Origin: Paenibacillus amylolyticus
GTDB lineage: Bacteria; Bacillota; Bacilli; Paenibacillales; Paenibacillaceae
Direction: 5' to 3'
NCBI RefSeq assembly: GCF_029689945.1
Contig: NZ_CP121451.1
Span: 620,001-684,000, forward strand
Length of the DNA: 64,000 bases
Shown: piece by piece, positions 14,010 to 26,688 of the stretch
Layout: every line of letters starts with the position of its first letter
How positions within the stretch are numbered: position 1 is the stretch's first letter
The notes under the pieces: model-generated
The model's database searches: none
Told to the model about the DNA's origin: nothing
Seen by the model: only the letters and a program-made list of their open reading frames with translations
Translations under genes and position numbers: made by a program

Positions 14010-14039
14010 AAAAAACCGACTGCATTATGCAATCGGTTG
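14010..14039 (-). terminator. Terminator overlapping the end of the first Spo0E-like gene
   Basis: On the minus strand AACCGATTGCATAATGCAGTCGGTTTTTT forms a stem with a T-tract; the stem begins within the last codons of the Spo0E-like gene, an economical arrangement seen with small genes. Confidence 0.75.
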
Positions 14040-14213
14040 TCTGTTACCGAGATGGCTTTTATATTTGAATCGATTATATTCATTAATCAGCTCGTCCAGC
14101 ACCATGGATTGTCGGAGGACTTTGTTGTCTTGCATGCCATGATTCTCCGCCAAACGACTCAATTCATGCCTGTTCCGTTCGATTTGGTCTCTGATCTGCT
14201 TCGGTTCACTCAC
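14025..14213 (-). CDS. Spo0E-family aspartyl-phosphate phosphatase, copy 1
   Basis: Small helical hairpin protein of 62 residues. Family members dephosphorylate Spo0A~P and delay sporulation. The family signature SQxxD-like segment appears as RQSMVLDELINEYNRFK, with IRDQIERNRHELSRLA as the first helix. The start is probably GTG 14213, eight bases after AGAGGGGG; longer ATG or GTG starts upstream leave no room for the binding site. It is paralogous to the gene at 16390-16563, and both flank the unknown secreted protein in the AT-rich island. Whether it acts on Spo0A or on another response regulator is not visible. Confidence 0.85.
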   Translation of the reverse strand: MSEPKQIRDQIERNRHELSRLAENHGMQDNKVLRQSMVLDELINEYNRFKYKSHLGNRQPIA

Positions 14214-14480
14214 AGCATGCACCCCCTCTTTTTTAAATATTTTAGGATACATTGCCAAAAAATTAACATTATATTCCTTTGCAAGGTAAAATGCTTATTT
14301 CCATAGAGATACTTTCAACATCAAGCATTTTGCATAGAGATATAAAAACCACTCATCACTACAATATGTGGTGAAAAGATATTGAGAGCATGTCTACATA
14401 TCGTGATCATGTAAGTTTGGCCGAAGAATTTAAGAACTAAAGTTTTATCACTTTATTAAATATCATCTCAATCATTTATT

Positions 14481-15058: not shown

Positions 15059-16027
15059 TTAATAAGACATTTTTCCTTTAGCCTTCCAATCATTTCTATA
15101 ACCTTCTGATTTAAATATGTCTTTAGCAGGAGTTGAACGATTAGGTTCAACTCTATATTGATGTTGTGCGATCTCAATAATATCTTTATTACTATAGAAA
15201 TATGTTGAATAAACCCAATTTATAGGAAGGTAACCAAAGGCGTCGGGAAGATAGTAAGTGGTAGCAGCATTTTTAATACTACCATTGCTATTGTATGTTA
15301 CTGCTTCATGTTTCCAGTACCATTCTTGTTGGTAGGTTTCAAAATAACTTTTAAAAGAGCCGTTGCGGTAAACCTGACCCGTTTTCTTTGCCAATCTAAA
15401 ATAGCCAGTCGCATCACCACTACCTTCTAAACCTTTAAGCAAATCATTTTGTAATTCCCCTACAAAAAAACCAACAACGTAATTAGAAATAAGTTTTCCT
15501 GATAACAGTGAAAAATACTTTTCATAAGACTTAGCTGCTAGATTAGAGCGTAGATTTTTTTTAACCGAATCAAATTTCGTTTGTTCGACTATAGGTTCAA
15601 AAGATGTGACAATTCGTACGTCTCCTTCATCATTTCTTTCTGCAAAAGGAGTGACAGTATCGTTCCCAGATTTTTTTAAGTTTGCAATTTGTTTTTTCAA
15701 GAAATTTGCATCATTCGTATTTTTGTAACTGAGCTTGTAGTAATCATAGATATATCGGGTCCCATCAGAGCCAATTTCTTCTTCAGTTTTGTATAAAGTC
15801 ATATCATCAACGATATTCCCAAGATATTCAGTATTTATTTTTTCTGGGATATCAATATTGAATTTATTATAAGTTTCTATTACTTGATCATCAGAAAGCT
15901 CACCAATAAATACACCTGGTTCGACTTCTTTGATCTTATTTTCATTTGCAGAAGCGGATACAGTTAGTGATGGAATCAAAAGAACAACTATTAGTAATGT
16001 CGAAATAAAACCTTTAATTTTCTTCAT
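15059..16027 (-). CDS. Secreted protein of unknown function
   Basis: 322 residues. A clear Sec signal peptide (MKKIKGFISTLLIVVLLIPS, cleavage likely after ASA) is followed by a polar domain rich in Tyr, Asn and Lys. Recognisable only as repeated motifs: EVEPGVFIGELSDDQVIETY early and YYLPDAFGYLPINWVYSTYFY late. No catalytic signature, cysteine pair or cell-wall anchor is visible. Start ATG 16027 follows GGAGG by seven bases; the upstream in-frame ATG would disrupt the signal peptide. Strongly AT-rich compared with flanking operons. The neighbourhood of Spo0E-like genes and a peptide-receptor array suggests it may be an output or accessory of that island, but this is only positional. Confidence 0.7.
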   Translation of the reverse strand: MKKIKGFISTLLIVVLLIPSLTVSASANENKIKEVEPGVFIGELSDDQVIETYNKFNIDIPEKINTEYLGNIVDDMTLYKTEEEIGSDGTRYIYDYYKLSYKNTNDANFLKKQIANLKKSGNDTVTPFAERNDEGDVRIVTSFEPIVEQTKFDSVKKNLRSNLAAKSYEKYFSLLSGKLISNYVVGFFVGELQNDLLKGLEGSGDATGYFRLAKKTGQVYRNGSFKSYFETYQQEWYWKHEAVTYNSNGSIKNAATTYYLPDAFGYLPINWVYSTYFYSNKDIIEIAQHQYRVEPNRSTPAKDIFKSEGYRNDWKAKGKMSY

Positions 16028-16389
16028 TGTACGACCTCCATGTAGTTTGTAATATAAATCTGTAATTATATAATCATTTACAACTATAAGAAGTATGATA
16101 TCTTTGAAACTAGAATTTTTTAAAATCATTAATTAAATATATCTGTATCCTACAGAATATGATCACCTCCGTTTTGAAGCAAACTTTAAGCTTTTCATAA
16201 AAACTGAAATATTACTATAATCGGCTTGAATAAACATTATAATATTTTGCAAAATATATCATAATACTCTTTTTATGAATAAAATACCTATAAAGTATCA
16301 AATATTAATCCTCACCGTTCAGATTAGCTAATTAAATCATTTAGAAAACAAAAAAAAATCTATTAAATAAGTTTGGATAACATGCCATT
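16028..16389. other. AT-rich intergenic region
   Basis: About 360 AT-rich bases between the secreted-protein gene and the second Spo0E-like gene. It should contain the promoter of the secreted-protein gene. No ORF with a binding site and no strong hairpin was seen. Confidence 0.45.
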
Positions 16390-16563
16390 TTACTTTTTCA
16401 CATTAATTCCTGAGGTATATCGATTATATTCATTAATTAGCTCATCCAACGCCATCGACTGTTCAAGCACTTTAACACTAGGAATTCCATATTGATCTAC
16501 CAAGCGACTTAACTCTTGCCGACCTTGCTCGATCTGGTCTTTCAAGATACTCCGTTCTCTCAT
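16390..16563 (-). CDS. Spo0E-family aspartyl-phosphate phosphatase, copy 2
   Basis: 57-residue paralogue of the gene at 14025-14213: LKDQIEQGRQELSRLVDQYG then LEQSMALDELINEYNRY, with the family core S-M-x-L-D-E-L-I-N. Start ATG 16563 lies eight bases after AGAGGGG, the same layout as copy 1, which supports the short start in both. The two copies share the sequence just downstream of the start as well, so they arose by duplication. Expected to remove phosphate from a response regulator such as Spo0A. Confidence 0.85.
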   Translation of the reverse strand: MRERSILKDQIEQGRQELSRLVDQYGIPSVKVLEQSMALDELINEYNRYTSGINVKK

Positions 16564-16730
16564 AGCATGTACCCCTCTAGGACATTCTGGAAAAACATTT
16601 AATATGAGTAAGCTAGTAGTTTCGCTAATGACCATAAGTACTTTTTAGAACATAATGTATTTTGCATAATTTTGTAAAAATAATTCTTTAGAAAAGACCT
16701 TCTGCTTTGCATAGTCCTTTCTCAAAATAT

Positions 16731-18422: not shown

Positions 18423-19793
18423 CTATTGAAAAGTTGGTACACTTAATTTATCTATTAGTTTTGTATACTCCTCTTCTTGGGTCTTACTGGCGTGATTTCT
18501 ATACTTTCCGTATAAGTCTATGCATTTGATACACATAAAATCTTCATTACATGAAGAAGAACGTTCTAAACTAGTAATTAGATGTTCTATTCCCTTTTCA
18601 ATTTCGTTCTGTTTCAATCTGTATTTTGCTAGTTCGTAGAACAAGCGTATATATCTAAAATTTGTTGCCTGTTCGTTATATACTCCTTGTACATGGCTTT
18701 CCGCTTTAATTTGATCAAGGTGATTTCGGAATCTATTCAATGTATAGTCAATATTATAAGAATGCTGATTTGCCGCCTGAATAATATACGTGAGTGCTGT
18801 TAAAATTTCAGCATGATTAATATCTAGGTAATCCAAATAACGATTTAAAAATTCGAAATCACCAGATAGTATTTTGTATAAATATCGATTCCCCTCAGCC
18901 CAGCCCTTGAATCGCTCTATCAATTCTTGTTCTTCCTCTGTCGGGTTTTCAATTCCATCCACAATATCCTCATAAACATCTGTATACTTCAAAGCTTGTT
19001 TATATTGCTTACGTTCTTCAGATACATTTGCCATGAGCAGATTAGCATACGCTTTGTAAGTAAATAGAGGATAAGAGGCTACTCTTGGTTTTCTTTTCCG
19101 TCTCATAGATTGAAGTTGAACTTGAAATTCAACTCTTCGAATCAATTCATTAGCCAGCTCAAAAACCTTATCCCATAGATTTATCGCGCCATACAAATTA
19201 GCTAAATCTTTAATCGCATCCAGCTGTACTTCTTCATTCAATTTGTCGATAAAGGGTTCAAACTTTATTGCGGCATTCAAGTTATTAAATTTATTCAGTG
19301 TTTTATGAAGCAGGAAGATGCGGTACTGGCATAAGGCCAACCGCTCGGAGTGCTGATATTTTTCACTGTCTGCAACACATCTGTATAAGATAAGAGCTGC
19401 CTCATTCATTCCTTTACCATAGAGAATCTCTGCAACCCCGTATAATTCTTCTATATAGGATCGATCGTCAGTCACATGAGTAATAACTTGTTGTATACAA
19501 TCCAGCTTACCAAGTTCAGCACACTCGTATAGATATGGTTCCAAACGTCTCCAGTGGGGCGTAGATTCAATGAAAGACTCTACTCCGTAAGTTTCATGAA
19601 AATAACCCTTTTCTAATCCCATTGCAGAAGTGATCTGATTCAGTTGGTTCATAGACATAGGCCTGTTGCCTTTAAGAATAGCGCTAAATGTCCCAACGTT
19701 AATTCCAGTAATATTGGAAAATTGCTGCAACTTGAGATTTTGTTCTCTCATGTATCTTTCAATATGTACTCTTATCGTAGGTAGCGATTCCAC
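18423..19793 (-). CDS. HTH-TPR peptide receptor 2 (RRNPP/AloR-like)
   Basis: 456-residue intact regulator. Residues 1-65 are an XRE helix-turn-helix (LKLQQFSNITGINVGTFSAI then PMSMNQLNQITSAMGL). The remainder is all-helical with degenerate TPR repeats, as in Rap, NprR, AimR and the AloR receptors of Paenibacillus, which bind short imported peptides and so change DNA or protein binding. Conserved landmarks: ESTPHWRRLEPYLYECAELGK, YQHSERLALCQYRIFLLHK and a C-terminal FMCIKCIDLYGKYR. The start is GTG 19793 behind GGAGGTGAG. It has its own promoter (19848-19876) nearly identical to that of receptor 1. No pro-peptide gene follows; it runs straight into receptor 3, so it may be an orphan or listen to the peptide of receptor 1. 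Confidence 0.85.
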   Translation of the reverse strand: MESLPTIRVHIERYMREQNLKLQQFSNITGINVGTFSAILKGNRPMSMNQLNQITSAMGLEKGYFHETYGVESFIESTPHWRRLEPYLYECAELGKLDCIQQVITHVTDDRSYIEELYGVAEILYGKGMNEAALILYRCVADSEKYQHSERLALCQYRIFLLHKTLNKFNNLNAAIKFEPFIDKLNEEVQLDAIKDLANLYGAINLWDKVFELANELIRRVEFQVQLQSMRRKRKPRVASYPLFTYKAYANLLMANVSEERKQYKQALKYTDVYEDIVDGIENPTEEEQELIERFKGWAEGNRYLYKILSGDFEFLNRYLDYLDINHAEILTALTYIIQAANQHSYNIDYTLNRFRNHLDQIKAESHVQGVYNEQATNFRYIRLFYELAKYRLKQNEIEKGIEHLITSLERSSSCNEDFMCIKCIDLYGKYRNHASKTQEEEYTKLIDKLSVPTFQ

Positions 19794-19847
19794 GATCTCA
19801 CCTCCGCCACAAAATCTCTTATAATTCAATTACATATAATAAATGTT

Positions 19848-19876
19848 ATTTTAATCCTGTATTTTACATCGGTCAA
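19848..19876 (-). promoter_or_regulatory. Promoter of receptor 2, shared motif
   Basis: On the minus strand TTGACC and TAAAAT are 17 bases apart, a good sigma-A promoter. The spacer GATGTAAAATACAGGAT matches the receptor 1 spacer at 14 of 17 positions, more conserved than the surrounding sequence, so it may bind a shared regulator, possibly the receptors themselves. Confidence 0.7.
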
Positions 19877-19884
19877 TCTAAGCA

Positions 19885-19926
19885 AATAAAAAAGCGTCCT
19901 ACTTCCAAATAGGAAATAGCACGCTT
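19885..19926 (-). terminator. Terminator after the pro-peptide gene
   Basis: On the minus strand AAGCGTGCTATTTCC and GGAAGTAGGACGCTT form a stem ending in a T6 tract, 26 bases after the pro-peptide stop. It closes the receptor 1/pro-peptide operon before the receptor 2 promoter. Confidence 0.85.
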
Positions 19927-19951: not shown

Positions 19952-20074
19952 TTAGTATCCACCTAATCCGTGATCAGAAAGTAACCTTATAAAAATATCT
20001 ATACTATCATTAGAACTTTGCAATAGAATAAAAGAACTAAACAGCATTAATACCAATGCTACTTTTTTTTTCAT
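19952..20074 (-). CDS. Secreted signalling pro-peptide (AloP/Phr-like)
   Basis: A 40-codon ORF that overlaps the last 38 bases of receptor 1 in another frame. The product begins MKKKVALVLMLFSSFILL, a compact signal peptide (Lys tract plus hydrophobic core), continues QSSNDSIDIFIRLL and ends SDHGLGGY. This is the architecture of Phr/AimP/AloP precursors: export, then trimming to a C-terminal peptide that is imported and bound by the receptor. From memory, AloP of P. polymyxa matures to SHGRGG, very like DHGLGG here. An AAGGAGG lies 12 bases before this ATG; an in-frame ATG nine bases upstream is closer than usual. A terminator follows. The A9 run at the start makes the frame sensitive to sequencing error. 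Confidence 0.78.
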   Translation of the reverse strand: MKKKVALVLMLFSSFILLQSSNDSIDIFIRLLSDHGLGGY

Positions 20075-21424
20075 ATCGACCATAGACCTCCTTGATAACA
20101 CTTTTATATTGGGACTCTATTGATTCAGAAGCCTGACTTCTGTACTCTTCAAATAAACTGACACAATATATTATAGTAGAGTCATCCTTGATCTTATGGG
20201 CAATCGTTAAACAAATAAGCAAGTTTCTAAATCCTTCCTGGTACCTCCCTTTAGAAAGTTGGTACAGGGCTAGATTCCCCAAAACTTGGTGTGTTGCTTG
20301 TTCTTTATCACTGTACTATAACTACTTTGATAGTTAAGTTCATTAAGTAGTTTGTGAATAAACAGATCAAATCTTCGAAGAGCGTGATCAATATTAATGT
20401 GATACAAATTTGCTGCTTCTATAACTTTAACAAGACCAAGTAGAGTTTCGTTTTCATTAGTTTCTATAAAATCAAGATAGGAATTAAGTGCGTCAATGTC
20501 ACCCATCATTAACTTGCACGAGTAGGTATTCACTTCAGCCCAATCTTTGAATCGCTTTATAAAAGATTGATCTTCTAAAGTAGGTTCTTCAATAACTATA
20601 TTTGAATAAAGAGAAATATACTCTAGTGCCTTCTCATACTCTTTACGTTCACTCCACACCGTAGCCATAATCAAATAAGCATAATATTTATAAGTAAATA
20701 ATGGGTGTTTGGAAATACGATTATTATCTATTCCCTTTTTCTTATATTGTTCCAAAAATTTAACTCGTTGCAACAATTCCTCAGCTAGTTGGAATACTTT
20801 ATCCCAGTAATTTAAGCTTGCATATATATTAGCTAGCTCCCTTATCGCATCCAGTTGCCTCTCTTCATCCAGCCGATTAATATACGGCTCGAAGTGCACG
20901 GCGGCCCGGAGATTCTCGTGTTGGTCCTGACCGAGAGATAACGTGAAGATGCGATACTGGCACAGAGCGAGACGTTCCGAGTGTTGATACTTCTCACACT
21001 CTGCCACACATTCGTACAACATCCGTGCAGCCTTCGTCTGTCCACGTTCCAGCATGCCTTCGGCCATCTCGAACAATTCCGAGATATACGAGCGATCATC
21101 GGTCACTTCCTGAATAATCTTCTGAATACATTCCAGCTTGTCCAATTCAGCACAGCGCTGGAGAAATGGTTCCAGTCTCCTCCAATGGGGTGCCGATTCC
21201 ACGAAACATTCTGCCCCATAGATCTCGTAGAAGTATCCCTCTTCCAGCTTCATGCCCTGGGTAATCAGATCCAGTTGCGCCATAGCGATGGGCCGAGTCC
21301 CCTTAATAATTGCACTAAGCGTTCCGGCGTTAACTCCCGATATATCGGCAAAATACTGCAGGGTATATCCCTGTTTCCTGATGTAGTCCTCAATATATGA
21401 GCGTATCGTAGTTGTAGGTTCCAT
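20037..21424 (-). CDS. HTH-TPR peptide receptor 1 (RRNPP/AloR-like), frameshifted
   Basis: First receptor of the array and partner of the overlapping pro-peptide gene. N-terminal XRE helix-turn-helix (YTLQYFADISGVNAGTLSAI, then PIAMAQLDLITQGMKL), then helical TPR-type repeats with APHWRRLEPFLQRCAELDK and YQHSERLALCQYRIF. Start ATG 21424 follows GGAGG by eight bases. The frame breaks at the TTT run (plus strand) 20304-20306; one more base restores EQATHQVLGNLALYQLSKG, which aligns with EQATNFRYIRLFYELAKYR of receptor 2. Restored length is about 462 residues. The 5' half is less AT-rich than the 3' half and than receptors 2 and 3. Likely a peptide-controlled transcription regulator. Confidence 0.82.
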
Positions 21425-21478: not shown

Positions 21479-21507
21479 ATTTTAATCCTAAATTTTACAG
21501 CGGTCAA
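21479..21507 (-). promoter_or_regulatory. Promoter of receptor 1, shared motif
   Basis: TTGACC, 17-base spacer GCTGTAAAATTTAGGAT and TAAAAT on the minus strand. Same -35, spacer length, -10 and most of the spacer as the receptor 2 promoter at 19848-19876, followed in both by an AT-rich leader. Confidence 0.72.
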
Positions 21508-25627: not shown

Positions 25628-26688
25628 TTATACCAACACGGGCAGATGCGTTGCTGCATCATACTCGGCCAATTGCTCACCAGTATGCAATCTACGCACC
25701 AGATCGGGGTTGGAGATAAACGGTCTGCCGAACGCCGCCAGATCTATGCTTCCCTTGCCAATCGCGTGCTCTGCGGTCTGAACATCCAGATTCCCCACAC
25801 CAATGATGATGCCATCCCACTGACTTCGAATCCGCTCGTGAAAGGATTGCCCACCATCCCATGCTTTTGCATAATGATCTGTCGAGGGATGCAGGATCGT
25901 AATGCCCGTCTCGCGGAACAAGTTCAGATATGCATCGATCATTGCAGCTTTGTCTGTCCATGCATAGGATGCATCATCATCCTTTTTTTCGGAGAATCGT
26001 ATCGATATGCGATCTGCACAGATCTCTTTTTCACAGCCACAATAATATCCCGCAGGAACCGCAATCTGCCCGCCATATCTCCTCCGTATTCGTCTGTTCT
26101 ATGGTTGGTCTTCTCATTGATAAACTGGTCGATCAGATACCCATGCGCAGCATGAAGTTCGATCCCGTCAAACCCTGCCAGAACCGCATGGCGGGCTGCC
26201 GTCTGAAAATGCTGAATCGTATCCGCTATATCCTGTGCGCTCATCGTTTGGGGAACCTGATATGGCTTATGCAGCTTATGCACTCTTCCCTCTGCCGCAA
26301 GGCTGGAAGGTGCCAGTGGAGCGGTTCCGATCAGATCAGAATGGGACAATCTGCCGACATGCCACAGCTGAGCAATAATGGTGCCGCCATGTCTGTGCAC
26401 AGCATCCGTTACCCTTTTCCAAGACGTCGTCTGTTCATCTGTATATAAGCCGGGAATGCCATAAGTGCCTTTGCCTGCCAGGTTGGGGTTAATGCCCTCA
26501 GTGATGATCAGGCCCACGCCATCTCGTGCACGCTGCTCATAATACGCCACTATCTCATCTGTCACCGTGCCCTTCTGATCATCCGCAAATCCCCGGGTCA
26601 TTGGAGCCATGACAATTCGGTTTCTTAACTGCCATTGATGAATCGTCACCGGGCTTAATAATGTTGAACGTGTATTCATGTTATCCAT
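25628..26688 (-). CDS. Old Yellow Enzyme family NADH:flavin oxidoreductase, frameshifted
   Basis: FMN-dependent ene-reductase, about 353 residues once restored. N-terminal barrel LRNRIVMAPMTRGFAD, then the active-site region FDGIELHAAHGYLIDQFIN with the catalytic His pair, and C-terminal phosphate-binding AFGRPFISNPDLVRRL. The frame breaks at the T7 run 25983-25989 (A7 on the coding strand): with one more base SPKKK continues as DDDASYAWTDKAAMIDAYLN into the second part. It is divergent from a LysR regulator, a common pairing. Probably reduces electrophilic alkenes such as maleimides or quinones. Confidence 0.87.

Follow-up and report, generated by a model that had tools for sequence, protein, structure and literature searches.

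It is an open question why bacteria maintain many variants of a single signalling system, each responding mainly to a signal of its own. The question has been studied in agr, comQXP and PlcR, and it is raised again by a receptor gene and a tiny gene overlapping its end in Paenibacillus amylolyticus. The stretch of DNA analysed here, called the window, comprises 64,000 nucleotides of contig NZ_CP121451.1 (assembly GCF_029689945.1, positions 620,001 to 684,000), and in it a helix-turn-helix (HTH)/tetratricopeptide repeat (TPR) receptor, receptor A, is overlapped by a 40-codon pro-peptide gene that we call aloP-like. We consider it likely that the two constitute an Alo-type pair of the RRNPP class, that the C-terminal hexapeptide HGLGGY is the predicted secreted signal, which would bind the receptor and change its action at two 29-bp boxes, and that the sensor half of the receptor and the signal gene have been exchanged as one cassette among related Paenibacillus. 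This reading rests on sequence, namely on an overlapping, conserved open reading frame (ORF), a six-residue end, two boxes that occur nowhere else in the genome, accessory receptors lacking an HG-type peptide, and a nearly frozen front half of the receptor set beside a sensor and a peptide that differ wholesale even among almost identical relatives, with sharp edges.

A pro-peptide gene overlapping an Alo-type receptor

The initial annotation described a 40-codon ORF with a Lys-tract that overlaps the end of an HTH-TPR receptor in another frame and is followed by a terminator. The ORF is as described, running from an ATG through MKKK to SDHGLGGY with a hydrophobic N-terminal stretch (the signal peptide was assessed by hydropathy alone), and the hairpin behind it is terminator-like indeed (-21 kcal/mol, z -4.8, as good in 0 of 200 shuffles). 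Its start lies 38 nt ahead of the receptor stop, with a further in-frame ATG at 47 nt. The overlap with an HTH receptor lying upstream on the same strand is real too, with one amendment: receptor A, which starts at 21424 on the minus strand, is not a single open frame across 20037-21424. The opening frame reaches a stop at 20270, 384 codons from the ATG, the frame being broken near 20280 in this assembly, and the remaining 80 residues are encoded in a second frame (20037-20282), which is the piece that the pro-peptide gene overlaps. The intact receptor used below for comparison is P0002, a 464-residue protein labelled Paenibacillus polysaccharolyticus that is 95% identical to the first piece of receptor A.

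Whether the small ORF is conserved beside homologous receptors was asked across 75 Paenibacillus genomes (own included), 66 of which carry a receptor homologue at E 1e-60. The best match is a close receptor in 48 of them, the window included; 46 of the 47 relatives were analysed as loci, and the receptor, box and peptide of the other, G032, were checked separately. The ORF is present at the same place, overlapping the receptor stop, in 46 of the 47. At 45 of the 46 loci first analysed it spans 38-52 codons, and its start precedes the receptor stop by 32-71 nt, 38 being the commonest distance and also that in G032, where the peptide ends in HGNGGV; the exception, L093, is a broken assembly in which SHGTGGY followed by a stop is readable in another frame. 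The concern that a different length of the A9 run after the ATG might close the signal-peptide frame could be set aside, because relatives whose peptides start with MRKK or MIKK share the frame on both sides of it, and because a 40-residue predicted protein from another contig is identical at 39 of 40 positions, MKKK start included. That the peptide is likely unannotated holds in so far as a protein search with it at E 0.01 returned only this one predicted protein, as would be expected of an overlooked gene; the annotation of the present genome lay outside the comparison. Over the 75 genomes the same type of search gave 10 matches only, own genome included, because the middle of the peptide diverges, and it is the search by position that finds the ORF in 45 of 46.

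The conserved part of the peptide is its end. All 46 peptides (45 relatives and the window) end exactly six residues from a His, as HGx[G/A]x[Y/L/I/V], with the His and Gly invariant, the fourth and last positions constrained and 22 different hexapeptides represented, and the residue before the His is among the most variable (3.1 bits). Because the conserved block is exactly six C-terminal residues long and is preceded by so variable a position, HGLGGY is the best candidate for the mature signal, with a predicted cleavage before the His. SDHGLGGY, the signal originally proposed, was rejected for the same variable residue; nevertheless, 7- and 8-mers may be the mature form. The published AloP13 signal comprises six residues as well (PMC7425212), and HGLGGY is better described as a new member of a known signal family than as the new signal type first suggested. 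One observation weighs against this simple scheme of maturation: the closest relative in the polymyxa group carries SHG[LM]GGW followed by a C-terminal tail at 11 of 11 loci looked at (L101-L111), and so maturation may differ there. The internal position of the motif in these pro-peptides, with the extra tail, suggests two cleavages.

The assignment to the Alo family of RRNPP systems is supported by several lines of comparison. Gene order, overlap, pro-peptide size, hydrophobic core and the Gly-rich C-terminus, in which a resemblance to AloP SHGRGG had been noticed from the start, all match Alo systems, and in BLASTP the intact P0002 is homologous to AloR13 of P. polymyxa (33.7% over 457 aa, E 1e-89; the reference was taken from locus L179, whose genome encodes the AloP13 sequence printed in PMC7425212) and 35-45% identical to the polymyxa-group AloRs of genome G012. 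The N-terminal HTH matches PF01381 with E 1.8e-4 and 21.9 bits, just under the cut-off of 23, and HTH helices are seen in the structure model of P0002 (predicted local distance difference test 87.5), where they are followed by an all-helical TPR-like superhelix. A fold search with this model matched NprR, RapI, RapF and PlcR, and unrelated TPR proteins such as LGN scored equally; the TPR-like match in the model shows fold only, and fold alone does not prove family. The receptor profile had no match at E 0.01 among sequences of solved structures, and NCBIfam none for the four proteins submitted. A tree of 42 receptors unites those of this locus that come with a peptide in a single clade, whose sister group consists of the accessory receptors from these arrays; AloR13/14 and the closest polymyxa-group receptors fall elsewhere. 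The tree rejects a place within the P. polymyxa Alo13 clade, AloR13/14 lying beyond a fully supported branch. Rap-Phr systems are defined by TPR receptors without a DNA-binding HTH. A Rap-Phr type was likewise rejected, since Rap lacks the HTH that the PF01381 match and the model indicate here.

Probable exchange of the sensor half together with the signal gene

The receptor is divided into two halves with different histories. Among 14 loci (91 pairs), the non-synonymous divergence pN is 0.02-0.04 over codons 1-200 and 0.32-0.37 over codons 201-464, with synonymous divergence pS at 0.54-0.81 throughout. Single pairs show how abruptly the change sets in: L059 and L085 are mostly 99-100% identical up to receptor base 600 and about 50% identical past it, and between L075 and L077 identity drops to 37-64% from base 675 to the end of aloP and then returns to 91-100%. 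With 38 loci, 160 of 703 pairs are close in the flank (pS <0.35), of which 132 have a sensor pS above 0.6, and in every one of these 132 the hexapeptide differs as well. In 99 close pairs the left edge of the divergent segment falls at codon 147-224, with a median of 197, and the right edge, where it could be located (38 pairs), lies between -5 and 350 nt past the aloP stop. Tree tests on the sensor half reject the flank tree by 4791 log units and the front-half tree by 4121.

Signal and sensor change together. Fourteen sensor groups can be distinguished (pN <0.12), the window being grouped with five relatives whose peptides end in HG[A/I]GGY, and identical hexapeptides are found in 38 of 114 pairs from the same group and in 13 of 876 pairs from different groups. 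The arrangement by which a pherotype locus is recognised, a signal and a sensor that vary together beside conserved parts, is thus present. The sets behind these figures comprise 14 loci for pN/pS, 38 for flank pairs and tree tests, 45 and the window for sensor groups, 41 for edges and 12 for the comparison with the second locus described below; the sets of 14 and 12 were hand-picked, the others were limited by a readable flank gene or start motif, and the thresholds (pN <0.12 for sensor groups, flank identity 0.93 and the pS cut-offs) were our own choice.

The genome contains a second complete Alo pair, alo2 (C1:1229098-1230447, L094), which lies outside the window; its pro-peptide ends in DHGFGT, and a Spo0E-like gene comes next. 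Unlike the signal of the window locus, which varies, the alo2 signal is DHG[FL]G[TS] in 13 of 13 genomes fetched, and the alo2 sensor pN is only 0.08-0.11. Where both loci are present (12 genomes), each of the 8 pairs whose alo2 sensors are close is divergent at the window locus, and among pairs with a front-half pS below 0.35 the sensor pS exceeds 0.6 in 17 of 18 at the window locus against 4 of 20 at alo2. Because pairs with near-identical upstream DNA and front halves possess unrelated sensor halves, it appears from these sequence comparisons that sensor half and signal gene were exchanged as one cassette between related Paenibacillus, and did not just evolve fast.

Two promoter boxes and an array of accessory receptors

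The 29-bp box ahead of receptor A and its second copy ahead of accessory receptor B (Table 1) tie for the top promoter-like score of the region, 10 of 12, and in the 6.8-Mb genome a search allowing up to 3 mismatches found the box in these two places only. Across the genus, at up to 1 mismatch, it is found in 48 of 75 genomes, exactly those carrying the close receptor, 26 of them with two copies and 22 with one; the reversed pattern had no match across the same 75 genomes, and the box is absent at up to 1 mismatch from the second Alo locus of this genome and from polymyxa-group genomes. In four genomes (L091, L092, L173, L174) the second box precedes a two-gene ATP-binding cassette (ABC) transporter, a putative 264-residue membrane protein (no Pfam match in L174) with a 235-residue ATPase; in two of these genomes it lies 5.5 and 10.4 kb from the first box. 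At L058 it precedes what, read by eye, is an apparent receptor remnant. Receptors A and B, only about 50% identical overall, share most of the HTH recognition region, and we infer from these sequence features that the receptors would act at the box.

Table 1. Coordinates of the locus within the window
Feature	Position	Strand	Basis and remarks
Promoter box 1 (TTGACC-17-TAAAAT, spacer conserved), 54 nt ahead of receptor A ATG	21479..21507	-	Exact match; one of two genome copies
Receptor A (aloR-like), first 384 codons, HTH and most of TPR superhelix	20270..21424	-	ORF listing, HTH match, 95% identity to intact P0002, fold model of P0002
Front half of receptor A, conserved (codons 1 to about 197; HTH, first TPR helices)	20834..21424	-	pN 0.02-0.04 across relatives; left edge median codon 197
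Exchangeable cassette (predicted from relatives), receptor sensor half and pro-peptide gene	19952..20833	-	Divergence, edge and tree comparisons
Receptor A, last 80 residues, in another frame	20037..20282	-	80/80 identical to P0002 C-terminus
aloP-like pro-peptide gene, 40 codons, ATG 38 nt before receptor stop	19952..20074	-	ORF listing, conservation at relatives' loci
Predicted mature signal HGLGGY, C-terminal hexapeptide	19955..19972	-	Conserved block starts at His, six residues from end, 46/46 peptides
Terminator-like hairpin 3' of aloP (longer stem in RNA fold)	19899..19919	-	Hairpin scan, RNA fold
Promoter box 2, 54 nt before receptor B GTG start	19848..19876	-	Exact match; second of two genome copies
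Intact accessory receptor B; search for a peptide gene negative; listed from TTG at 19829, GTG at 19793 after GGAGGTGAGATC	18423..19793	-	ORF listing; accessory clade sister to A
Accessory receptor C, first piece, 206 codons	17781..18401	-	ORF listing
Accessory receptor C, last piece, 180 codons	17038..17580	-	ORF listing
Spo0E-like gene at array end, behind terminator-like hairpin	16390..16635	-	PF09388, E 9.7e-12

Receptor A is followed on its 3' side by the intact receptor B, by receptor C in pieces and by a Spo0E-like gene. At least one intact accessory receptor is present at 25 of 47 loci, 35 such receptors in total, all of them without an HG-type peptide gene; peptide-less receptors are likewise described for P. 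polymyxa (PMC7425212). Other short hydrophobic ORFs near 5 of the 35 were not counted as signals: none has an HG end, and 3 of the 5 are TTG-started more than 100 nt away. No operator shared with spo0E was seen by eye, the upstream sequences of the spo0E genes being different, and a terminator-like hairpin separates Spo0E from box 2 in the window as in larger arrays. This hairpin counts against the pair acting on Spo0E through box 2, from which the gene need not be read in the window, and it is the reason why control of spo0E by the pair is put forward as an analogy only.

A second Spo0E-like gene (14025-14258, minus, PF09388) lies further on in the window; many related loci have similar genes on their downstream side, which seem to be separate from the array. 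A 356-residue ORF (15059-16129, minus) situated between the window's two Spo0E-like genes contains a stretch resembling a signal peptide close to its start and matches nothing in Pfam. Frame breaks are not confined to the receptor array. Forty-three window genes have an orthologue lying on one contig of the near relative G073, and eight of them are split between frames, at sites near 1785, 3760, 8347, 20280, 26000, 36997, 49850 and 58480; seven of the eight sites have a run of at least four equal bases nearby, a count given without comparison against chance. The gene at 25628-26688, split over two frames near 26000, corresponds to a single 361-residue ORF in the relative. The assembly seems to be rich in small indels, and other "pseudogenes" in the window deserve caution.

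Alternative explanations, proposed mechanism and related systems

That the small ORF encodes nothing used, being a mere by-product of reading the receptor end in another frame, can barely be entertained: it does share sequence with the receptor frame, and protein databases hardly contain it, yet its start, hydrophobic core and six-residue end are conserved around a variable middle, about 27 of its 40 codons lie, by coordinates, beyond the receptor stop, and fragments of nine AloP peptides have been detected in P. polymyxa culture medium (PMC7425212). It is also conceivable that the pair is real as a family and dead in this strain, a true frameshift having removed the last 80 residues of receptor A and left the signal without a working receptor. 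The break is present in the sequence as given, relatives have the receptor intact, and accessory receptors of the family are broken or short in several of them; the strain may truly have lost receptor A. We nevertheless hold this to be unlikely. The eight split genes in 43 contrast with 4 split alignments among 206 at 45 control loci (2 of 10 for the window on the identical query set), and of those four, two come from one poor assembly (L093) and two (L062, L079) from receptor queries at loci with broken accessory receptors. The 80 residues past the break are identical to those of P0002 at all 80 positions, and among the loci of the 46 relatives the sole other broken first receptor sits in a genome of 89% completeness. 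Because of this excess of split genes, the existence of a 95%-identical intact receptor and a genome completeness of 95.84% despite 3 contigs, an assembly indel is the most likely cause of the break.

The two remaining alternatives concern the sensor half and the box. Had the sensor half diverged rapidly where it stands, driven by positive selection and not by recombination, its high pN would be accounted for; this is very improbable, given that in relatives whose flanks are close the synonymous divergence rises abruptly as well, from about 0-0.3 to 0.6-0.9, that identity is back at once after aloP in some pairs, and that the tree tests reject a shared history. Exchange as one cassette has its own difficulties all the same: the right edge was not found in 61 of the 99 pairs, the 13 different-group pairs share a hexapeptide and several hexapeptides occur within one group, the flank and front-half trees reject each other too, far more weakly (delta lnL 191 and 154), the control locus alo2 shows a weaker form of the pattern in its 4 of 20 pairs, and the counts, being non-independent, are of pairs and not of exchange events. 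As for the box, it might be a strong constitutive promoter copied by receptor duplication and not a receptor binding site. Its sequence suits a sigma-A promoter, the spacing being 17 bp, the accessory clade is the sister group of receptor A, and at promoter 1 the conserved stretch runs from about -18 to +60 of the box, so that conservation there is not operator-specific. This explanation is possible but rather doubtful, for the spacer is nearly as conserved as the hexamers (0.97 versus 1.00) and largely common to both copies in spite of a receptor identity of only about 50%, whole genomes are devoid of any further copy, the box is kept before a non-receptor ABC operon, kilobases away in two genomes, and G033, G034 and G037 carry the same AAATAAGG variant in both copies, with G064 having it in box 2 and nearly in box 1.

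Returning to an exchanged Alo-type pair that acts at the boxes, we propose that the pro-peptide would be exported via the Sec pathway and cleaved before the His, and that the released hexapeptide would be re-imported to bind in the TPR groove of the sensor half. In other RRNPP systems re-import is carried out by an Opp-type importer. The HTH would recognize the box, through which the receptor would control its own operon (box 1) and a second unit (box 2: accessory receptors here, the ABC transporter in four relatives), and the hexapeptide would switch this control; a box overlapping the core promoter would fit repression as well as activation. If Alo13 is a guide, the spo0E-like gene that closes the array may be another target: Alo13 is reported to activate a spo0E target until its peptide shuts activation off (PMC7425212). 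Since it is the cassette that changes, with the DNA-binding half and the box held constant, every group would respond to a peptide of its own with the same output, as pherotypes do. We lean, with some reserve, towards a still broader picture of a cassette port, in which the frozen DNA-binding half and its private operator would stay in place while sensor-plus-signal cassettes (14 groups, at least 22 hexapeptides) recombine between Paenibacillus species, so that lineages change the language and not the message; the one signal of an array would also speak for its tandem peptide-less receptors, and the output of the second operator would be swappable between accessory receptors and an ABC transporter.

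If this is true, each group would obtain a private channel. A receptor divided near codon 200 into an output half that is fixed and an input half that can be exchanged, together with its dozens of alleles in nature, a candidate operator and a predicted signal of six residues, makes specificity testable through a comparison of natural alleles and would supply peptide channels that are naturally orthogonal. Attention is also drawn to a tiny gene in many Paenibacillus genomes that protein databases largely lack.

The Alo family and the pherotypes of PlcR are already known (PMC7425212, PMC7267880); in the literature on Alo, RRNPP, Paenibacillus and pherotypes that was covered, which comprised neither subscription papers nor the supplements of PMC7425212, whose census may list some of the receptors, we found no account of this locus, its box or a sensor-signal exchange in an RRNPP receptor. 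The likeness to Alo13 of P. polymyxa (PMC7425212) extends to an HTH-TPR receptor, an overlapping or adjacent pro-peptide of 32-50 residues, a Gly-rich C-terminus (SHGRGG), a peptide-less neighbour receptor and a spo0E-like gene nearby. The window receptor differs in being 34% identical to AloR13 and in a separate clade, its signal has one more residue after HGxGG, the peptide-bearing receptor is the first of its array, and the two dedicated boxes and the cassette exchange are not described in the text of PMC7425212 that was covered. Closest in the polymyxa group are the receptors of L101-L111, about 45% identical by BLAST and accompanied by the SHG[LM]GGW pro-peptide at all 11 loci; they differ in the internal motif with its tail and in the absence of the 29-bp box (at up to 1 mismatch), and in the tree they fall with other polymyxa-group AloRs, outside the clade of A and the accessory receptors.

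Further afield, the PlcR-PapR pherotypes of the Bacillus cereus group (PMC7267880) resemble the present locus in an RRNPP receptor with a conserved HTH, a variable signal-binding region and several pherotypes. The word recombination is absent from the main text of that paper, whereas here the edges of exchange, a fixed front half and 14 sensor groups across species could be mapped. No sequence relation of the window receptor to a solved structure was found at E 0.01. In agr (AgrB-D-C), signal and sensor vary together at one locus, and both agr and comQXP employ membrane kinases and modified peptides. Joint variation of signal and sensor at one locus is described for comQXP as well (PMC4408185). 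The system proposed here differs from both in that a single cytoplasmic receptor would itself be divided into a fixed half and an exchanged half.
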